DNA from: a virus | Reading direction: 5' to 3' (one strand) | IMG/VR virus record: IMGVR_UViG_3300021378_000195 | Location: 1-21,365 of that record | DNA: 21,365 bases | Part shown: positions 832-19,328 of the stretch, one piece after another | How the letters are laid out: every line of letters begins with the position of its first letter | Numbering within the stretch: position 1 is the stretch's first letter | The notes under the pieces: generated by a model | Told to the model about the DNA's origin: nothing | What the model saw: the letters and a program-made list of their open reading frames with translations, nothing else | The model's database searches: none | Translations under genes and position numbers: made by a program

Positions 832-942
832 CTACTGGCACGCCTCGCACTCTTCGGGATTCTCAATCCCGCAAGAGAGCGGTGCTTCGTCTTCGTCTTC
901 CATGAATATTTCAAACTCGTATTCCTCGTCAGGGTCAATCAC
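832..942 (-). CDS. Tiny acidic cysteine-bearing protein (36 aa)
   Basis: A GTG start at 942-940 overlaps the TGA of the endolysin (GTGA). The frame ends with TAG at 834-832. The 36-residue product begins MIDPDEEYEFEIFMEDEDEAP and ends with CGIENPEECEACQ. About a third of its residues are Asp or Glu, and it has cysteines at 24, 32 and 35. The Cys cluster may bind metal, but with three cysteines only this is uncertain. I do not recognise the family. The GTGA coupling to the endolysin and the fact that it exactly fills the space up to the convergent operon support it as a real last gene of the late unit. Confidence 0.6.
   Translation of the reverse strand: MIDPDEEYEFEIFMEDEDEAPLSCGIENPEECEACQ
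849..878. terminator. Inverted repeat at the convergent operon junction, candidate bidirectional terminator
   Basis: The arms cgggatt (855-861) and aatcccg (865-871) are perfect with a 3-nt loop. They extend with ctctt (850-854) pairing aagag (873-877) across one unpaired base at 872. Neither strand has a clear T-tract after the stem, so intrinsic termination is uncertain. It lies inside the 36-aa minus-strand gene, just beyond the end of the plus operon, where transcripts from both sides collide. Confidence 0.4.
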
Positions 943-1829
943 TTGACGTACCCCACAACATCCACGACCACATGCGTGTCGCGCAACGACTGAATGTCGA
1001 ACTGTCCATTCTTCAACGGAACGAAGTGCGTGTTCGCCAACGTGTCACCCTGCTCGTAGTTCAAGCACGATGTCTCACCCAAGATCGGGTCAGCAGGCGC
1101 AGCGACCGACAGGAACCCTGGTCCCTCGGGCTGCGTCACCGTCAACGTAGCAATGGCCCCAGTCGCGTCCTTCGGCACACCGTCACCAATGTTGAAACGG
1201 TAAGGCTCACCCCCATCAAGCTTCTTGCCAGGCCACACCCGCGTGTCCGCTGATCGGTACTGCTGAATCATTGCCATGTCTTCATCCTTCGGGGGGTCTG
1301 GTGTGGGCGCTTGATGGCCGATAATGCCTTGCCTGATCTGTTCGATGATTCCCTCGCCAGCGCACGCAGTCCAGTCGATCTCTCCGTGCCATCGGACGGG
1401 CCAATCTGGCTGAGTGGCGATCAGAGCGTTGACCGAAGCAACAGCTTCGGGCGATGCAGGGTTCTGTCCCCCGACAGCAATCTGAATGCTGCGGGTCACG
1501 TTGTTCTTGCCTCCCCCAACTTTGCGGCCAGGGTTACTTGCAGGGTTGTAGACACGCACGCCACGAAACCCCTCGATGCCACGCACCGCCCAAAGGCTTC
1601 CCGACTGTGACGCCACCACTGAGTAGCCGTAGCTGTAGCCCCGACCATTTTTGTATGACCGCTGGGACGCCCTGAGTGACCTAATCATCTGTGCGTCAGT
1701 GCGCGGTTCGTACATTGACGGCGACCCTGGGTAATGAATGATCCATTCGCCAGGCACACCCTTAGGCGCAGGTCCAGTTATCGGCAGGGAGTCGTCTTCC
1801 CACTCCCACTGGGGGTGAATATGAACCAT
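939..1829 (-). CDS. Endolysin: amidase domain plus actinobacterial surface-protein domain
   Basis: Probable N-acetylmuramoyl-L-alanine amidase that cuts host peptidoglycan for lysis. ATG at 1829 overlaps the TGA of the giant upstream gene as TGATG. An in-frame GTG one codon earlier is less likely. Residues about 25-170 form an amidase_2/PGRP-like domain, with IIHYPG holding His32, and H-G-E-I-D-W-T-A-C-A-G holding His148 and Cys156, the expected three zinc ligands. The family more often has C-P-G where this protein has C-A-G. After a Pro-rich linker (171-187), residues 188-296 match a domain seen repeatedly in secreted actinobacterial proteins (DTRVW, PKDATGAIATLTVTQPEGPGFLSV, SCLNYEQGDTLAN, HVVVDVVGYV). 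It probably serves as the cell-surface binding half. No signal peptide is seen, so export should need a holin. Confidence 0.85.
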   Translation of the reverse strand: MVHIHPQWEWEDDSLPITGPAPKGVPGEWIIHYPGSPSMYEPRTDAQMIRSLRASQRSYKNGRGYSYGYSVVASQSGSLWAVRGIEGFRGVRVYNPASNPGRKVGGGKNNVTRSIQIAVGGQNPASPEAVASVNALIATQPDWPVRWHGEIDWTACAGEGIIEQIRQGIIGHQAPTPDPPKDEDMAMIQQYRSADTRVWPGKKLDGGEPYRFNIGDGVPKDATGAIATLTVTQPEGPGFLSVAAPADPILGETSCLNYEQGDTLANTHFVPLKNGQFDIQSLRDTHVVVDVVGYVK

Positions 1830-4800
1830 CACTCACCCTCTCTGCCCTGGCGACGACGTTCGCTATCGCGCTCGTAGTCGCCAAGCTGTTTGAACGGAAG
1901 GCCGAGGTAGTTCAAAGCCTTCTGTAGCTGTCGGTCTTCGAGGCGCGCCTTGCTGTCCTCGCTGCCCAGCGGGTTGATGCCGAGAAGCCCCTTAGCGGTG
2001 CCAGTCGGAGTGAGTACGCCTTCGATGCCGTACATGATTCGCTCCAACGCCTGCTCCTGGCCGCTCTTGTCAACCCAGTTGCCGTACTTGTCTTGCTTCT
2101 TGTCGAAGAAAGCATCGCCGCCGCGGAACCCTGAGTGGTTGAAAGCAACCTCGATTGGCTTCGTAACCAGCGGGTTGCCCGAAGCAAGCAACCCGTCGAC
2201 AATCGGGATGCCCTGCTCGCCCTGCCCGCTGAACGCCATGATGTCCTGCATCAAGTTCGAGTGCTGCAAGTCGGGTGCGAACACGAAGTCCTTCGACTTG
2301 TCACCGAACCAAGAGCCACCCATCACAATCGCTCCAGCATCTTTCAGATACTTCGGCATCAACGAGTTGTCGTCGGACTCGTCAAAGTTGTTCATGAAGT
2401 GGTTGTAAACGGCGTACGCCTTTGGGCGACGCCACATCTGCTCAATTTGCAAAGGCAAGTTGCGGCTCATGAACATGTAGAACGGAATCACACGTTTCAT
2501 TTTTTGGTCTAGGGAACTCAAGTCTGAGTAGTCGAAGTGCAGGCGCTTCACTCGCGAAGCCGCCATGCTCATCCCGCCACCGCCACTTGTTGTGTTCAAC
2601 GCAGCAGCCAAACGGACTGGACCTTCAACCAAGTCCTCGCCGTAACGGCGGGACATTCGGGTCGCCTTGTTGTTCTTCAAACCCTTCCAAGCTTTGACTG
2701 CGCCCGTACCAATTTCGCCAGGATCAAACGAACCACCAGCGCCCACAGCAAACACAGCCTCGAACGCATCTTTCACATGCTGATCTTCGGGTCCGAGGTT
2801 CTTGATGTAGTTCTCGGGATCGTTGACGTAACCCCGCCAGTGCTTGGTCGCTGATCGAACGTCTTTGACCTTGACGCCATCGGCAAAGTTCATGAACGTC
2901 GCACCCATGAAGTTACGGAGATGGAAGCCAGGCGTCATCGTCGCGTACGACTTGAACACCTGGGTTGCCTCGTCAAACCACTTGAGGTCCAGATCGTCGC
3001 CCATCGCGCTCATCCAGTTTTCGACGTTCTTCTTGACCACCGAGTCGATAGACATGTCAGCCATGCCAGGGAACATCTTGGAGTTCAAACGCTCGTAGCC
3101 GTCAAGGAATGCGCGCTGCATGTCAAGGTTGAAGCCTTCGCCGCCATCTTTAGACCCAGCAAGAGCCTTCTGGTAGAGGCCGTCGATTTGTTCGGTTTGG
3201 TCAGCGAACTCCTTAACCCCCTTTAACTGGTTTTCGTAGTTGTCCATCAAGCGTGCGGTCATCTTCATGGCGTGGTCGTCGGGAGCCTCAGCCAGCGAAA
3301 GCCGAATGATGTTCTCGAACTGGTCGCGCCGCACACTCAACTCGTCGGCTGGTACGTCCCATTTCTGATTGTCTGCCTTCTTCCCCTTCTTCTTCTTGAT
3401 CGCCCTGAGTTTCGCCAAGCGATCCTTGCCCCAAACGGCGTGCTCAGTTGCGTCTACCTGATCTGCGACAATCGCGGCCCGAACGCCGTCAAGTTCAGCG
3501 ATCTGTTCCGCTTCGCGTTTGCCAAGTGCGTTCTCTACGGCTGCGAGCTTGTTTAAGCCGAACTCGCCGTCGTCAGCCATTGGCGCTACCGCCGCCTCAA
3601 GACGACGCAGGTCGTCGGTCATCGCTGGCAGCGGACTGGAAGCCTCAAGCTTCGCCAAGTCGTTTTCAAACTTTGTTTGCGCCCTCTGTCCATAGCCGAC
3701 AGCACGGCTCATCCTCTCTCCGATGTCTGCCTGCTCGGCACGGAGTGCAGTGAGTTCGTCAAGCTGCTTCTGAGCAACGTCGCGGTTCACGATGTTCAGC
3801 TTGCGTTCCCAGGATGCGATCTGCCTGGCGTAGTCGTAAACGGAGGCGCGAGCTTCGGGCGTCATCCGTTCGAGGATGTCCTGAGCCTTCATGTAGCTCA
3901 TCTGTCGCTCGTACGACCCTGACTTACCCATGAACTTCTCAAAGGTTTTGCTGCCGTGACGGAACTTCTGTGCCGCACCGCCCAAGACCTCACCAGCCTC
4001 GGTGTAGCTAATCCCGCCCGACTTTTTACCGTCAGGTGTGAAGAAGTCCCTGGCTCGCGTGTTCGGGTGGTCAGCCTTGTACGCCTCGAAATCGTTGCCG
4101 TACTTTTCTGCTACCCGCTTCTGTAGCTGTCGGGGAGTAACTACCTCACCATCTGTACCGAACCTCTTCTGGAAGTCGGAAGACTCATCTACCTTCGTCC
4201 AGAGAAGTACGTCAAGTTGTCTAGCCACGCCCTGTCCGTGGGCTTGCTGAACTATCTCATTAGTCATGCCAAGCGATTCGAGAAGATCGTCCCTCGTTTT
4301 CTCTGCCGAGTTCGCCGCCTGACGCGCATGTCTTTCCTGTGTAGCCAGGTCAAGCCCAGCGTTGCGGGTGCCGCCCGCACCAATCTGTTCCAGAAAGTCT
4401 GCGCCCAGCTCGTCGCCGTAGCGCTCGTCAGCAGAGCGCAGCCCCATGCCGAGAAGCTCTTGTGCGTCGTCACTTGACCCTGGCAAGTGGCGAGCATCTT
4501 CGCCGCCAACCGTGTTCCGCGCCGAGTACCGCAACTGTTCACCGATGGAACTGGTCAGTTGCTCACTGCCAGTGATCCCGTCGTCGGTAACCCTTGCAGC
4601 ACCGCTTTCGAGGATGCCCGCCTCGATACCGCCGTCCCCTCTGCGCGACCAAGGAGGCGTCTGCTTCCACGTCTGACCGAACGGAGCGTCAGGCATGTAC
4701 TTGGTCGAATTGGGTTCTCTTCCCAGTTCAAACCAGTCGTCCATAACCTGACGGGCTGATCGGTTCTCGGTTGCAAGTTCGTGCCAAGGCTGACCCTCAG

Positions 4801-7800
4801 TGTGGGCAATCCTCAGCATGTCATTGTTGTAGTCGTACGCGACCTTCGCGTCCGTGGACCAACTGTCATAGTCGCCCTTGTACCGCGGGTGCTTCACTGG
4901 ATCAGGAGCGTTGTCAGGACGCCCTGGCTTACCCTTCTGCCACCTGTTCGGATTGTGACTCGGCGTATCAACCTGCGGGAAATCCTTACGCCGCTTGTTT
5001 TGAAGCTTCTTCGCAACAGACTGAGCGTCGTTAACAGAAGCGTCAAGACCATCAAAAAATGAACGCGTCACCTTCAAAATAGAAAGGTCGATGTTGTCAG
5101 GGTCCATCCGACCTGTGGTCGGGATATCAGACAAGTCGTCAATTTCGTTCTGGTGGCCGCGAACCGTTGCCGTGAGTTCCGCGATGTCGGCATCAAGCTC
5201 ATCCACGGTCTTGGGATTAGCAAATACAGGAACTTCCGTTTCCGTGGTCCTGTACTTCACCCGCGTTACGCCATCGTCGTCAACGAACTGCTGCACCTTC
5301 CTGTAGACGCCCTGTTTCTTGTGAAGCGATTCCAGAAACGCAACATTCTGTGCCAGTACGCGACGGTCCAAGACCCTCGCGTTCGCCAGGTTCCCAGGGG
5401 CGTGAGTCTCGGGGAATACAGGAGTAGGGCGCTGCGGCCCATAGAAACCCAACCCAGGGGTTCGTGATATCTGCGCTGCCTCAGCGTCATAAGGAAGAAG
5501 CGACTGGTTGCGCGACCCAAGGGTGGCCGTCCTGTCACCAACCCGCACCTCCATGTTGCGTTGCCGCGCAAACTCCATGCTGTCGTCCAGCACCGACTGG
5601 TCGACAAGAGTTCTCGAATCGTTGAGCGCGTCCTTCGAGGTGTGACGGTTCAGTTGTTCCTGCGTGTCTGCAACAATCCAACGCTTCTGGCGCAGCCTGT
5701 GAGCGTCCGACCCGAGAGCAGTTGCGTTGATCCACTCACCGCTCCCCATCGGCCCATTCGATGCCAGCCAGACATCAAGCTCATCGAGGTTCCCCCGAAC
5801 TTCCTTCATGTACTCGAATGCTTCAAACACCTCGTCCGACAGCCCGCCGAAATCGTCGGCCAGCGTCGGCGCGTTCATGTGTTCCGCAACCAAGTACATG
5901 GTGCGGTTCTCCATCTCCAAATACTGAACAAGCAGCTTCTCGCGAGAAATAGCTACCCGCTCGGCGTTCGCCGCATCGAACGCCATGTGGTCCGCGTACG
6001 CCATGTTGTTCCACCCCTCGGGGGGAGCCTGCGGGTAAATCGACTCAGCGGCGTCATCAGAGGCGCTCCGAAGGTTCTTGACGGCATTAGCAAGCGTGCC
6101 CTTGTTGACCTCCGCATTCGAGCGGTTCGACTGGAGTGTCTTCGTCGTCTTGTCACGCGCAGCCACAGCCTGACCATTCAAAGCCCTTAGGTCTTTGTTC
6201 TGTTGAACATCAGACCAAAGTGTCTTGTCAGCGGTGTCTTCCCAGTCACCTCTCTGCTTCCAAATGTGCTGCTGCTGACTTTCGATAGCGTCGTCTACAG
6301 TATCGAGTTGAGACTGGTTCAAACGTGAAGTGATCTCAGGGCGACCTTGATTCAGGAGCGGGTGCATTGACCCGTCCGCAAGATCTTCGAGCGCCTGCTC
6401 CCAGCCGCTGAACGTCCCGTCACGCATCAAGATGTCCAACTTGGCCTGGTTCTCTGTGGCCGCATCCATCGCCCAACGGTCAAGCGGGATTTCCTCGAAC
6501 AGTTTTTCTTGCCCTGTGACGATCTTCGTGCCCTTGAGGTCGGTAAAGAACTCCATGAGAAGCTGGGGGGAGGAAGAAATCTCTTCCATCCGTCCCGTCT
6601 GCGACATCACAAACCCGTACATCTCATCGAGTTCCGTCAAACCCTCGATGGCTTGAGTGTCCATCCCGATCTTCTCGGCATGATGGTTGCTCTTCTTGAT
6701 CCAAGTATCCAGCAACTTACGGACCTGTGCGGTTTCTTGGGTGTAGCCATCAGCAATGGCCTGCTTGGTGACGGCGATGTTGTTGTCCAAATCGGCCTTC
6801 ACCGCAACCAGATCATCGACCTGCTTAGAGAGCCGTGTCCGTTCAGCGGTAAACGTTTCGCGAATGGCTTTCTCTGCGCCTTTCCTTCCCTTATCGTGAG
6901 CCGACAGTTGCTGCTTGATTGTTTTGGTTACGCCGATAAGTTCTTTGTGTTCTTCCGCTGCCTCGTCAACCAATCGCACTAGCGAGTCATCGAGGGCTTT
7001 AGAAATCTCTTTGCCGACACGCGCAGCTTCACCAAGGAGGTACGACTCATGCTCTGCCCGATTCACCAACTCCTTTTTTAAGAAGTCAGCGACCTGCTTG
7101 TTCTTCGTGAGGTTTTGCGCCCCGCGAACCATTTCCGTCGTCATGTGCTTGACGCTGCCCAGTTCGCCCATGTCCAGGGCGTGCATCAACATTGCGTGGT
7201 GGCCCTGAACGCGGGACATCTCACCGATGTACCGCTCCATCAGAACGACAGCGTTGTCTTCCACAAACTTGATGCCGCCAGCCTCAGGGAACGCCTCAGT
7301 CAGCTTTGCGTTGATGTCCTCAATCGACGCATCATCAAACGTGACTTTCCGTCCCTTGATGTCAACTGTCTTGCCAGCAGTGAACGCACGCGTCTGTGCA
7401 GCGTCCTGGCCCGCCTCAGTGCTGCCGCCATTCAGCATCGTCCTTGTAGCACTGTCATCACCGAAGAAGTCCCAAGCTTCCTTCGTGGAGCGGTGCGGCA
7501 AATACCCTGGGCCTCGGAAGCCCATATCGAGGGCTTCGCCAGTCGCCTCTCTCACGTTCGAGTAGACAAGATCGCGTAACGCAATAACTGACTGCGCCTC
7601 GGGAGACAGCTTCGCCAGCTTCGCTGGATCAGCGCTCCCCCCCATCGTCTTGAAGTCCCAGCCAATGTTCAGAGACTCGATCTCTTTCGTGACCCTTGTG
7701 CGAGTAGCGTCGTCAAAACCTTGGAATTGTTTCTGCGCCAAACGTGCATAAGGCTCCGCAGCGCTGCCAGCGACGCCCTTGAACTTGTCGATCATTTCCA

Positions 7801-8698
7801 GCGTGATGCCAGCAGCCTTGGGCGAGATCCCGTCGATTGTCTTGCCCGTCTGAGCCACACGGCGAATGACGGCCAAGCCTTCGTCACCGCGACCCTTGCC
7901 AACCTTGCCGACCAGACGGCCAGCAGAGTTAAGGCGCACCGCAGAGAACCCTTTTTCTGAAACTTTGCCGATCTTGCTGGTGAGAGGCAGGTAAACGGAC
8001 TTGTCACCCCAACCCCAGTAGACGCCCGCCTTCTTCACGCCCAACGCTTCACGCGTCACGTCGTCAAGACCGACGTGACCGAACTTGGCGACATGTGCCG
8101 CAACATCGTCCGACATGCCAAGCTTGGCGGCTTGCTTGACCAGCCCCTCGCGACCCAGCTTGCCCATCACCATGTTCGACTTCATGGCCGCGCCACCGAT
8201 GTAGCTGATCGGGTCAAGAGCAACGTCGCCCACAAAGCCAATCGCACGGTCAACCCACTTGTTGCCAGTTACGTCACCCAGCAACTCGCCCATGCCGTAA
8301 TTCGCGTCAGTCAGCTTGTCCCAGTTGGAACGCTGGTCAACGAGCTTCCCGTTCTCCATCTGCGTGCCGAACTCGCGGCCCATGACGCCTTCGGCAACTT
8401 CCTCGAATGCGAGGGTGCCCAAGTTGGAAACGAAATCAAGACCCTTAGCTGCCCCGCCAAGAACGGTGCCCAAGCCGCCCATGATTGCGCCGCCAATACT
8501 GGTGTCGCCGCCACCGCCTTGACCGCCTTCCCAGTTGCGGTTCAGCAGATCCTCGGTACTCATGCCAGACCCAGTTAACGGCCTCATTCGAGGCGCAGGG
8601 GCAGGAGGGGGTGGAGGCCCGCCATAGAGCGAGCCTTGCCCGTTCCGTTGCTGCCCGAGTTGACGCGCTAACGCCTGATCGCGATTGACGATTGCCAT
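1829..8698 (-). CDS. Giant internal virion (ejection) protein, 2289 aa
   Basis: By position and architecture this is the giant ejected protein of a podovirus, analogous to (not demonstrably homologous with) T7 gp16. The N-terminus has a polyproline run (28-36) and a Gly-rich hydrophobic stretch (67-98, IGGAIMGGLGTVLGGAAKGLDF) that could insert in a membrane. A segment, WVDRAIGFVGDVALDPISYIGGA (148-170), resembles a motif of other giant phage virion proteins, as does GYLPHR near 395. Long coiled coils run about 550-950 and 1560-1750, and a disordered Pro/Asp-rich part lies about 1240-1370. Near the C-terminus are TPGFHLRNFMGATFMNF (about 1920-1940) and IPFYMFMSRNLPLQIEQMWRRP (about 2070-2090), typical of the conserved C-terminal module in such proteins. 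I see no clear lysozyme, protease HExxH or RNA polymerase motif. The start is fixed by the promoter-like motif 16 nt upstream. Confidence 0.8.
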   Translation of the reverse strand: MAIVNRDQALARQLGQQRNGQGSLYGGPPPPPAPAPRMRPLTGSGMSTEDLLNRNWEGGQGGGGDTSIGGAIMGGLGTVLGGAAKGLDFVSNLGTLAFEEVAEGVMGREFGTQMENGKLVDQRSNWDKLTDANYGMGELLGDVTGNKWVDRAIGFVGDVALDPISYIGGAAMKSNMVMGKLGREGLVKQAAKLGMSDDVAAHVAKFGHVGLDDVTREALGVKKAGVYWGWGDKSVYLPLTSKIGKVSEKGFSAVRLNSAGRLVGKVGKGRGDEGLAVIRRVAQTGKTIDGISPKAAGITLEMIDKFKGVAGSAAEPYARLAQKQFQGFDDATRTRVTKEIESLNIGWDFKTMGGSADPAKLAKLSPEAQSVIALRDLVYSNVREATGEALDMGFRGPGYLPHRSTKEAWDFFGDDSATRTMLNGGSTEAGQDAAQTRAFTAGKTVDIKGRKVTFDDASIEDINAKLTEAFPEAGGIKFVEDNAVVLMERYIGEMSRVQGHHAMLMHALDMGELGSVKHMTTEMVRGAQNLTKNKQVADFLKKELVNRAEHESYLLGEAARVGKEISKALDDSLVRLVDEAAEEHKELIGVTKTIKQQLSAHDKGRKGAEKAIRETFTAERTRLSKQVDDLVAVKADLDNNIAVTKQAIADGYTQETAQVRKLLDTWIKKSNHHAEKIGMDTQAIEGLTELDEMYGFVMSQTGRMEEISSSPQLLMEFFTDLKGTKIVTGQEKLFEEIPLDRWAMDAATENQAKLDILMRDGTFSGWEQALEDLADGSMHPLLNQGRPEITSRLNQSQLDTVDDAIESQQQHIWKQRGDWEDTADKTLWSDVQQNKDLRALNGQAVAARDKTTKTLQSNRSNAEVNKGTLANAVKNLRSASDDAAESIYPQAPPEGWNNMAYADHMAFDAANAERVAISREKLLVQYLEMENRTMYLVAEHMNAPTLADDFGGLSDEVFEAFEYMKEVRGNLDELDVWLASNGPMGSGEWINATALGSDAHRLRQKRWIVADTQEQLNRHTSKDALNDSRTLVDQSVLDDSMEFARQRNMEVRVGDRTATLGSRNQSLLPYDAEAAQISRTPGLGFYGPQRPTPVFPETHAPGNLANARVLDRRVLAQNVAFLESLHKKQGVYRKVQQFVDDDGVTRVKYRTTETEVPVFANPKTVDELDADIAELTATVRGHQNEIDDLSDIPTTGRMDPDNIDLSILKVTRSFFDGLDASVNDAQSVAKKLQNKRRKDFPQVDTPSHNPNRWQKGKPGRPDNAPDPVKHPRYKGDYDSWSTDAKVAYDYNNDMLRIAHTEGQPWHELATENRSARQVMDDWFELGREPNSTKYMPDAPFGQTWKQTPPWSRRGDGGIEAGILESGAARVTDDGITGSEQLTSSIGEQLRYSARNTVGGEDARHLPGSSDDAQELLGMGLRSADERYGDELGADFLEQIGAGGTRNAGLDLATQERHARQAANSAEKTRDDLLESLGMTNEIVQQAHGQGVARQLDVLLWTKVDESSDFQKRFGTDGEVVTPRQLQKRVAEKYGNDFEAYKADHPNTRARDFFTPDGKKSGGISYTEAGEVLGGAAQKFRHGSKTFEKFMGKSGSYERQMSYMKAQDILERMTPEARASVYDYARQIASWERKLNIVNRDVAQKQLDELTALRAEQADIGERMSRAVGYGQRAQTKFENDLAKLEASSPLPAMTDDLRRLEAAVAPMADDGEFGLNKLAAVENALGKREAEQIAELDGVRAAIVADQVDATEHAVWGKDRLAKLRAIKKKKGKKADNQKWDVPADELSVRRDQFENIIRLSLAEAPDDHAMKMTARLMDNYENQLKGVKEFADQTEQIDGLYQKALAGSKDGGEGFNLDMQRAFLDGYERLNSKMFPGMADMSIDSVVKKNVENWMSAMGDDLDLKWFDEATQVFKSYATMTPGFHLRNFMGATFMNFADGVKVKDVRSATKHWRGYVNDPENYIKNLGPEDQHVKDAFEAVFAVGAGGSFDPGEIGTGAVKAWKGLKNNKATRMSRRYGEDLVEGPVRLAAALNTTSGGGGMSMAASRVKRLHFDYSDLSSLDQKMKRVIPFYMFMSRNLPLQIEQMWRRPKAYAVYNHFMNNFDESDDNSLMPKYLKDAGAIVMGGSWFGDKSKDFVFAPDLQHSNLMQDIMAFSGQGEQGIPIVDGLLASGNPLVTKPIEVAFNHSGFRGGDAFFDKKQDKYGNWVDKSGQEQALERIMYGIEGVLTPTGTAKGLLGINPLGSEDSKARLEDRQLQKALNYLGLPFKQLGDYERDSERRRQGREGE

Positions 8699-18807: not shown

Positions 18808-19032
18808 TCAGACCTCTTCGGCCTCTTCGGGCATCGACGGGTGCTGCCAGTTCGTCTTGAAGTAGACGGCCAGCCACTGTGCTGACGCGACGCCAAGGAG
18901 CTGCACCCACTGCTCAGGGTCGATAGCTGTGCCCTCTGTCACCGCTTCGGTGAAGAGGCCGACGACGATAGGGATGAGGAACGCAACCCAGGCTTTTCCT
19001 GCCTTGTAGAAAGAATCCATGATTGTTTGCAT
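18808..19032 (-). CDS. Holin-like membrane protein (74 aa)
   Basis: Two hydrophobic stretches, residues about 12-29 (AWVAFLIPIVVGLFTEAV) and 42-58 (WVQLLGVASAQWLAVYF), are joined by a short loop with IDPEQW, and the end is polar and acidic. This layout, with the pattern W...LG...A..L.VYF.TN in the second segment, resembles small holins of actinobacteriophages (DUF7439-like). It would form the pore that releases the signal-less endolysin. ATG at 19032 overlaps the TAA of the upstream gene (TAATG) with GGAGG 4 nt upstream, and a second Met at codon 5 is possible. Family membership is by eye only. Confidence 0.65.
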   Translation of the reverse strand: MQTIMDSFYKAGKAWVAFLIPIVVGLFTEAVTEGTAIDPEQWVQLLGVASAQWLAVYFKTNWQHPSMPEEAEEV

Positions 19033-19328
19033 TACGCCTCCGCGTTTACTGGGGTGTGACCGAGTTCGATGAGTTGATTAGAAAGCTCACTGATGTGAAG
19101 CTCAAGTTGGACGATCTTCTTGTTGAGAGAAGCGACCTGGCCCGACAAGGAGCCGACCGCGACGATCAACTCCGAGATCCGTTCCGACTGCGGCTCAACA
19201 AGGAGCAGGGCGCTTTCGGTGATCTCCCGAGCGCCAGAAATGCTTTCTCGGGAACGACCCCAAATCAGTCCTGCGATGACTGTGAGCAAACCTAAAACTG
19301 ATGCGGCGATGACGGCGGCGGGATTCAT
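19032..19328 (-). CDS. N-anchored membrane protein with coiled coil (98 aa)
   Basis: One N-terminal transmembrane helix (residues 4-23, AAVIAASVLGLLTVIAGLIW) is followed by Arg residues and a long heptad-rich helix, about 48-90 (ISELIVAVGSLSGQVASLNKKIVQLELHISELSNQLIEL). The topology is compatible with an inner spanin-like or DUF2746-like lysis accessory protein found beside holins in actinophages. A host with a single membrane would make a true spanin unnecessary. It is coupled to the holin-like gene by TAATG. There is no clear Shine-Dalgarno before its ATG, so translation may depend on the upstream gene 15 nt away. Confidence 0.65.
   Translation of the reverse strand: MNPAAVIAASVLGLLTVIAGLIWGRSRESISGAREITESALLLVEPQSERISELIVAVGSLSGQVASLNKKIVQLELHISELSNQLIELGHTPVNAEA

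Follow-up and report, generated by a model that had tools for sequence, protein, structure and literature searches.

The endolysin gene of an uncultured phage ends in a domain of about 109 residues that is homologous to a repeat of secreted bacterial proteins. We propose, with a probability of about 0.72, that its product is a phage endolysin carrying a new jelly-roll surface-binding module held in common with those proteins. The phage is represented by an IMG/VR virus record of 21,365 bases, analysed over its whole length and called the window from here on, and the C-terminal DTR/DVVGY domain is referred to as DTR. The lysin and the gene coupled to it are laid out as follows.

939..1829, minus strand: endolysin coding sequence, 296 aa from ATG 1829, stop included (read directly from the sequence)
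942..1268, minus strand: C-terminal DTR/DVVGY domain, residues 188-296 counted from ATG 1829, single copy (bacterial-only profile, AlphaFold2)
1269..1316, minus strand: short Pro-containing linker, about HQAPTPDPPKDEDMAM (read directly from the sequence)
1317..1829, minus strand: catalytic half, a divergent PGRP/Amidase_2-like zinc amidase of the Streptomyces-phage endolysin type (tblastn, hhalign, profile)
1734..1736, minus strand: zinc ligand H32, in IIHY (alignment to the Janus, Picard and Andris endolysins)
1386..1388, minus strand: zinc ligand H148 (alignment)
1362..1364, minus strand: zinc ligand C156, in H-x7-C as in Amidase_2 enzymes (alignment)
1829..8698, minus strand: 2289-aa gene upstream of the lysin and probably translationally coupled to it (a related gene lies upstream of the lysin in related phages)

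The open reading frame of the lysin closes with the stop codon at 939-941 on the minus strand; judging from the sequence, initiation at GTG 1832 would be possible but ATG 1829 is the more likely start. In the sequence TGATG this ATG shares bases with the stop codon of the 2289-aa gene, and GAGGGTGAG lies ahead of it, which makes translational coupling between the two likely. The C-terminal part of the large protein is conserved among related phages. Two small genes for membrane proteins of holin and coiled-coil type (18811-19032 and 19035-19328) are 17 kb away from the lysin and thus not adjacent to it, in the interval from portal to terminase; in the contigs of L094 and L107, two of the phage lysins described below, comparable small genes follow the lysin immediately.

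Neither half of the endolysin was recognised by Pfam, NCBIfam or PHROGs, and a search for relatives of the whole protein by exact peptide patterns returned none. Pfam PF01510 matched neither the protein nor any of the window's DNA, while related lysins do match it. Compared by tblastn with 50,697 phage records under a permissive cut-off, the catalytic half had 22 matches, each individually non-significant; all 22 were Streptomyces phages, and the proteins listed are annotated as endolysin or amidase. Moreover, a profile of three Streptomyces-phage amidases aligned with the window protein by hhalign over 126 columns with a probability of 93.9 (E = 1.6e-7, valid for this one comparison), and the Streptomyces-phage amidase profile picked the protein out of a set of 4378 ORFs at E = 6e-6. 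H32, H148 and C156 fall in register with the zinc-ligand columns of these enzymes (His, His, Cys). The lysin thus has the same H-H-C ligands as the Janus, Picard and Andris Streptomyces-phage endolysins (Amidase_2 + PG_binding_1) and has the motifs IxHY, GYxxVxxQxG and xQIAxGG in common with them; it differs in being too divergent for the Pfam model and in ending in DTR where they carry PG_binding_1. An amidase with a His-His-Cys triad joined to the domain by a Pro-rich linker was what the original prediction had read in this gene, and the alignment bears it out. The AlphaFold2 model of this half is poor, with pLDDT mostly below 60, because the alignment held no homologues of it.

The C-terminal half contains DTR (residues 195-197), TVTQPEGPGFLSV, SCLNYEQGDTLAN and HVVVDVVGY. 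By tblastn against 72,556 plasmids it matched Streptomyces only, with individually weak matches, and pairwise BLASTP with one Streptomyces secreted protein gave 37% and E = 1e-11. A hold-out profile, built from 248 bacterial copies with every phage sequence excluded, gave the window protein 76.8 bits, equivalent to E = 9e-20 in a search of a million sequences, and found 0 of 2000 shuffles of the window domain at E ≤ 10, which rules out a chance motif as the source of the match. The tandem-DTR proteins secreted by Actinomycetota carry the same domain as the window by this profile and by the invariant residues R, D, R, D and G. The predicted homology of residues 188-296 to a repeat domain of secreted, mainly actinobacterial, proteins is therefore highly significant. 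Among 50,697 catalogued phages, tblastn with five DTR queries found no copy, so we did not see the domain spread through phages of unrelated hosts.

The domain was also said to lie outside the classical binding types, and this agrees with our searches: no Pfam or NCBIfam model covers it or its bacterial copies, no PHROG model covers the window domain, and neither Pfam nor NCBIfam matched the latter to PG_binding_1, LysM or SH3b. The titles and abstracts retrieved in literature searches for the domain and for related lysins contain no description of it. AlphaFold2 returned a confident all-beta structure for residues 188-296 (pLDDT mostly 91-98), predicted to be a jelly-roll of about 109 aa. Sequence comparison with solved structures gave a chance match only, and none with a profile of the three-copy unit; Foldseek found no strong PDB match to the window domain, the weak ones including CBM6 and jelly-roll trimers. 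DTR resembles the classical endolysin wall-binding modules (PG_binding_1, LysM, SH3b) in position and presumed role but not in sequence, its weak structural likeness being to CBM6 and C1q-like folds.

Next, we compared the window with its own phage lineage, whose members are tied together by the capsid, portal, terminase and large-protein genes that they have in common. It comprises G001 (L091), G002 (L009), G010 (L099), G011 (L102) and Podoviridae sp. ct52p938. Identity between the window and G002 is 47% for the portal, 50% for the terminase and 38-42% for the capsid, and the large protein is 64% identical to that accompanying L091 over the last 389 aa. Their lysins are built as follows.

Window: cryptic amidase + DTR
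L091 (G001): Amidase_2 + DTR
L009 (G002): GH25 + DTR
L102 (G011): Amidase_2 (58% identity with the L091 amidase) + LysM-looking end, no DTR match
L099 (G010): weakly matching amidase, without DTR
Podoviridae sp. ct52p938: VanY-like peptidase annotated as D-Ala-D-Ala carboxypeptidase, without DTR

The end of L102 is termed LysM-looking only, since Pfam did not confirm a LysM there. In all six members the large gene is followed downstream by the lysin gene, either immediately or after a few other genes. DTR is kept in three of the six, joined there to three different catalytic domains, and the same C-terminal slot holds PG_binding_1 in the Streptomyces-phage relative Janus and the LysM-looking stretch in L102. 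Retention of DTR while the catalytic domains are exchanged is the pattern of a binding module, and to this extent the proposed binding role, read from architecture, is supported.

IMG/VR scans extended the pattern beyond this lineage, adding six phage enzymes that each end in a single DTR copy: L091 and L009 above, and the following.

L094 and L107: Amidase_2 + DTR
L125: Amidase_2 + DTR
L010: enzyme of unassigned type + DTR, with a holin-like gene adjoining and then a separate GH25-like gene

Amidase_2 with a single C-terminal DTR was found in the IMG/VR contigs at L091, L094-L097, L107/L108 and L124-L126. The DTR domains of the seven carriers match one another by BLASTP in 21 of 21 pairs at E < 1e-3, and matches among their catalytic halves and that of L102 are confined to two subfamilies, L091/L102/L125 and L094/L107. 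Because otherwise unrelated lysins carry a single DTR at the same place, it is probably a new cell-surface-binding module. All phage carriers are uncultured contigs; a terminase is present in those of L009, L010, L094, L107, L005 and L007, and the copies at L098, L006 and L008 were left out of the phage count for want of a terminase match in G005, G008 and G009. The L098 gene (2988-5984 in G005) combines GSDH and PKD with three DTR copies. It shares its contig with a tail-collar-like and an Amidase_2 gene, and may belong to a phage or to flanking host DNA. Counting against the binding-module reading, the terminase-bearing contigs of L005 (2941-3372) and L007 (2524-3270) encode lone DTR domains without an enzyme, possibly secreted stand-alone proteins.

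In bacteria, a genome scan returned 80 DTR loci, mostly in Actinomycetota and many in Ilumatobacteraceae and Streptomyces. In even samples, with E thresholds differing between runs, the domain occurred in 16 of 198 Actinomycetota (15 of 197 without the centre genome; E ≤ 1e-10), 14 of 80 genomes of the centre's class, titled Acidimicrobiia (centre included; E ≤ 1e-20), 2 of 80 Acidobacteriota (1 of 79 without the centre; E ≤ 1e-20) and 2 of 200 Pseudomonadota (1 of 199 without the centre; E ≤ 1e-10). DTR is commonest in Actinomycetota and is also found in Acidobacteriota, Chloroflexota and Pseudomonadota. Within the class of L011 (titled Acidimicrobiia), there are genomes with 58 or more copies. 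Single genomes of Bryobacterales, Chloroflexi and Lysobacteraceae gave 115, 32 and 11 matches, the first of these (G016, Acidobacteriota, the genome of L074) being far above most sampled Actinomycetota carriers. The claim that the domain points to the host group thus held as far as the enrichment in Actinomycetota goes and was weakened by these three genomes; together with the resemblance of the amidase, DTR suggests an actinobacterial host. We infer that the module originated from a bacterial protein. Its capture from the host, as first envisaged, drew no support from a tree of DTR origin (123 domains, 116 columns), which gave no resolution, nor from the copy number, three in bacteria against one in phages.

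Many of the bacterial carriers are secreted proteins with PKD, CAP or subtilase domains that have no action on walls. Since DTR sits on such proteins and in Gram-negative genomes, its ligand need not be peptidoglycan. In favour of a binding module, a bacterial Amidase_2 with three DTR copies exists (L054, 1057-3714, in a MAG titled Spirochaetaceae). In the mechanism we envisage, the N-terminal zinc amidase would cleave the stem peptide from N-acetylmuramic acid at the amide bond that joins them. DTR, in the slot that PG_binding_1 or other C-terminal modules occupy in related lysins, would hold the enzyme on the surface of the host envelope, where its ligand is most likely a wall-linked glycan or protein.

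The number of copies bears on another explanation, in which DTR serves assembly: the domain would trimerise, the lysin would be a homotrimer, and bacteria would encode the same trimer as three tandem copies. Exactly three copies are present in 62 of the 68 complete bacterial ORFs at loci L011-L090 (two spurious extra matches discounted), on varied secreted proteins, against one in the window lysin and in the other phage enzymes. For L011, the prediction joins the three copies into a single rigid unit (pLDDT 96.7, pTM 0.94), whose Foldseek matches in the PDB include the engineered single-chain C1q-type trimers 5hkj, 5kca and 4dou and the triple jelly-roll 4ind. However, the TM-scores are only 0.2-0.25, so the domain arrangement of these trimers is not matched, and any chain of three jelly-rolls would rank among the same structures. 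Trimerisation is, moreover, compatible with binding, and we regard assembly as an unlikely account of the domain. Rather more conceivable, though tentative, is a combination in which DTR is an obligate three-fold surface-binding unit, made by bacteria as one three-copy chain, of which phages took a single copy, their lysins binding the same ligand with avidity as homotrimers.

A signal or passenger role seems improbable to us. Here DTR would be a secretion or surface-sorting signal from exported bacterial proteins, or a passenger without a part in lysis. Its place in bacteria fits such a role, as it lies at the C-terminus of unrelated secreted proteins, the last copy being within 6 aa of the end in 50 of 60 complete three-copy ORFs. 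Holin-type lysins are not known to require a secretion or sorting signal, which counts against the first form; a passenger, for its part, would not have kept its position while catalytic domains were swapped time and again in several phage lineages. Finally, we find it hardly credible that the gene is no lysin and encodes a virion or surface protein with a degenerate amidase half. In its favour, this half is missed by Pfam and PHROGs and is poorly modelled, and the gene is coupled to a large one that lies among structural genes. Against it, the zinc ligands and the core alignment to Streptomyces-phage endolysins are intact, and in relatives an endolysin occupies this position.

The reading of the protein as an endolysin with a surface-binding module concerns a domain that is abundant, lacks a family model and recurs on phage lysins. 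With DTR, the endolysins of uncultured, probably actinobacterial, phages would gain a new class of binding module, and cryptic lysins would become easier to annotate. It would also open a first experimental route to the targets to which the three-copy units of secreted bacterial proteins attach. If the obligate three-fold unit were true, DTR would be an envelope-attachment system of Actinomycetota that has no name yet and that their phages have repeatedly borrowed.
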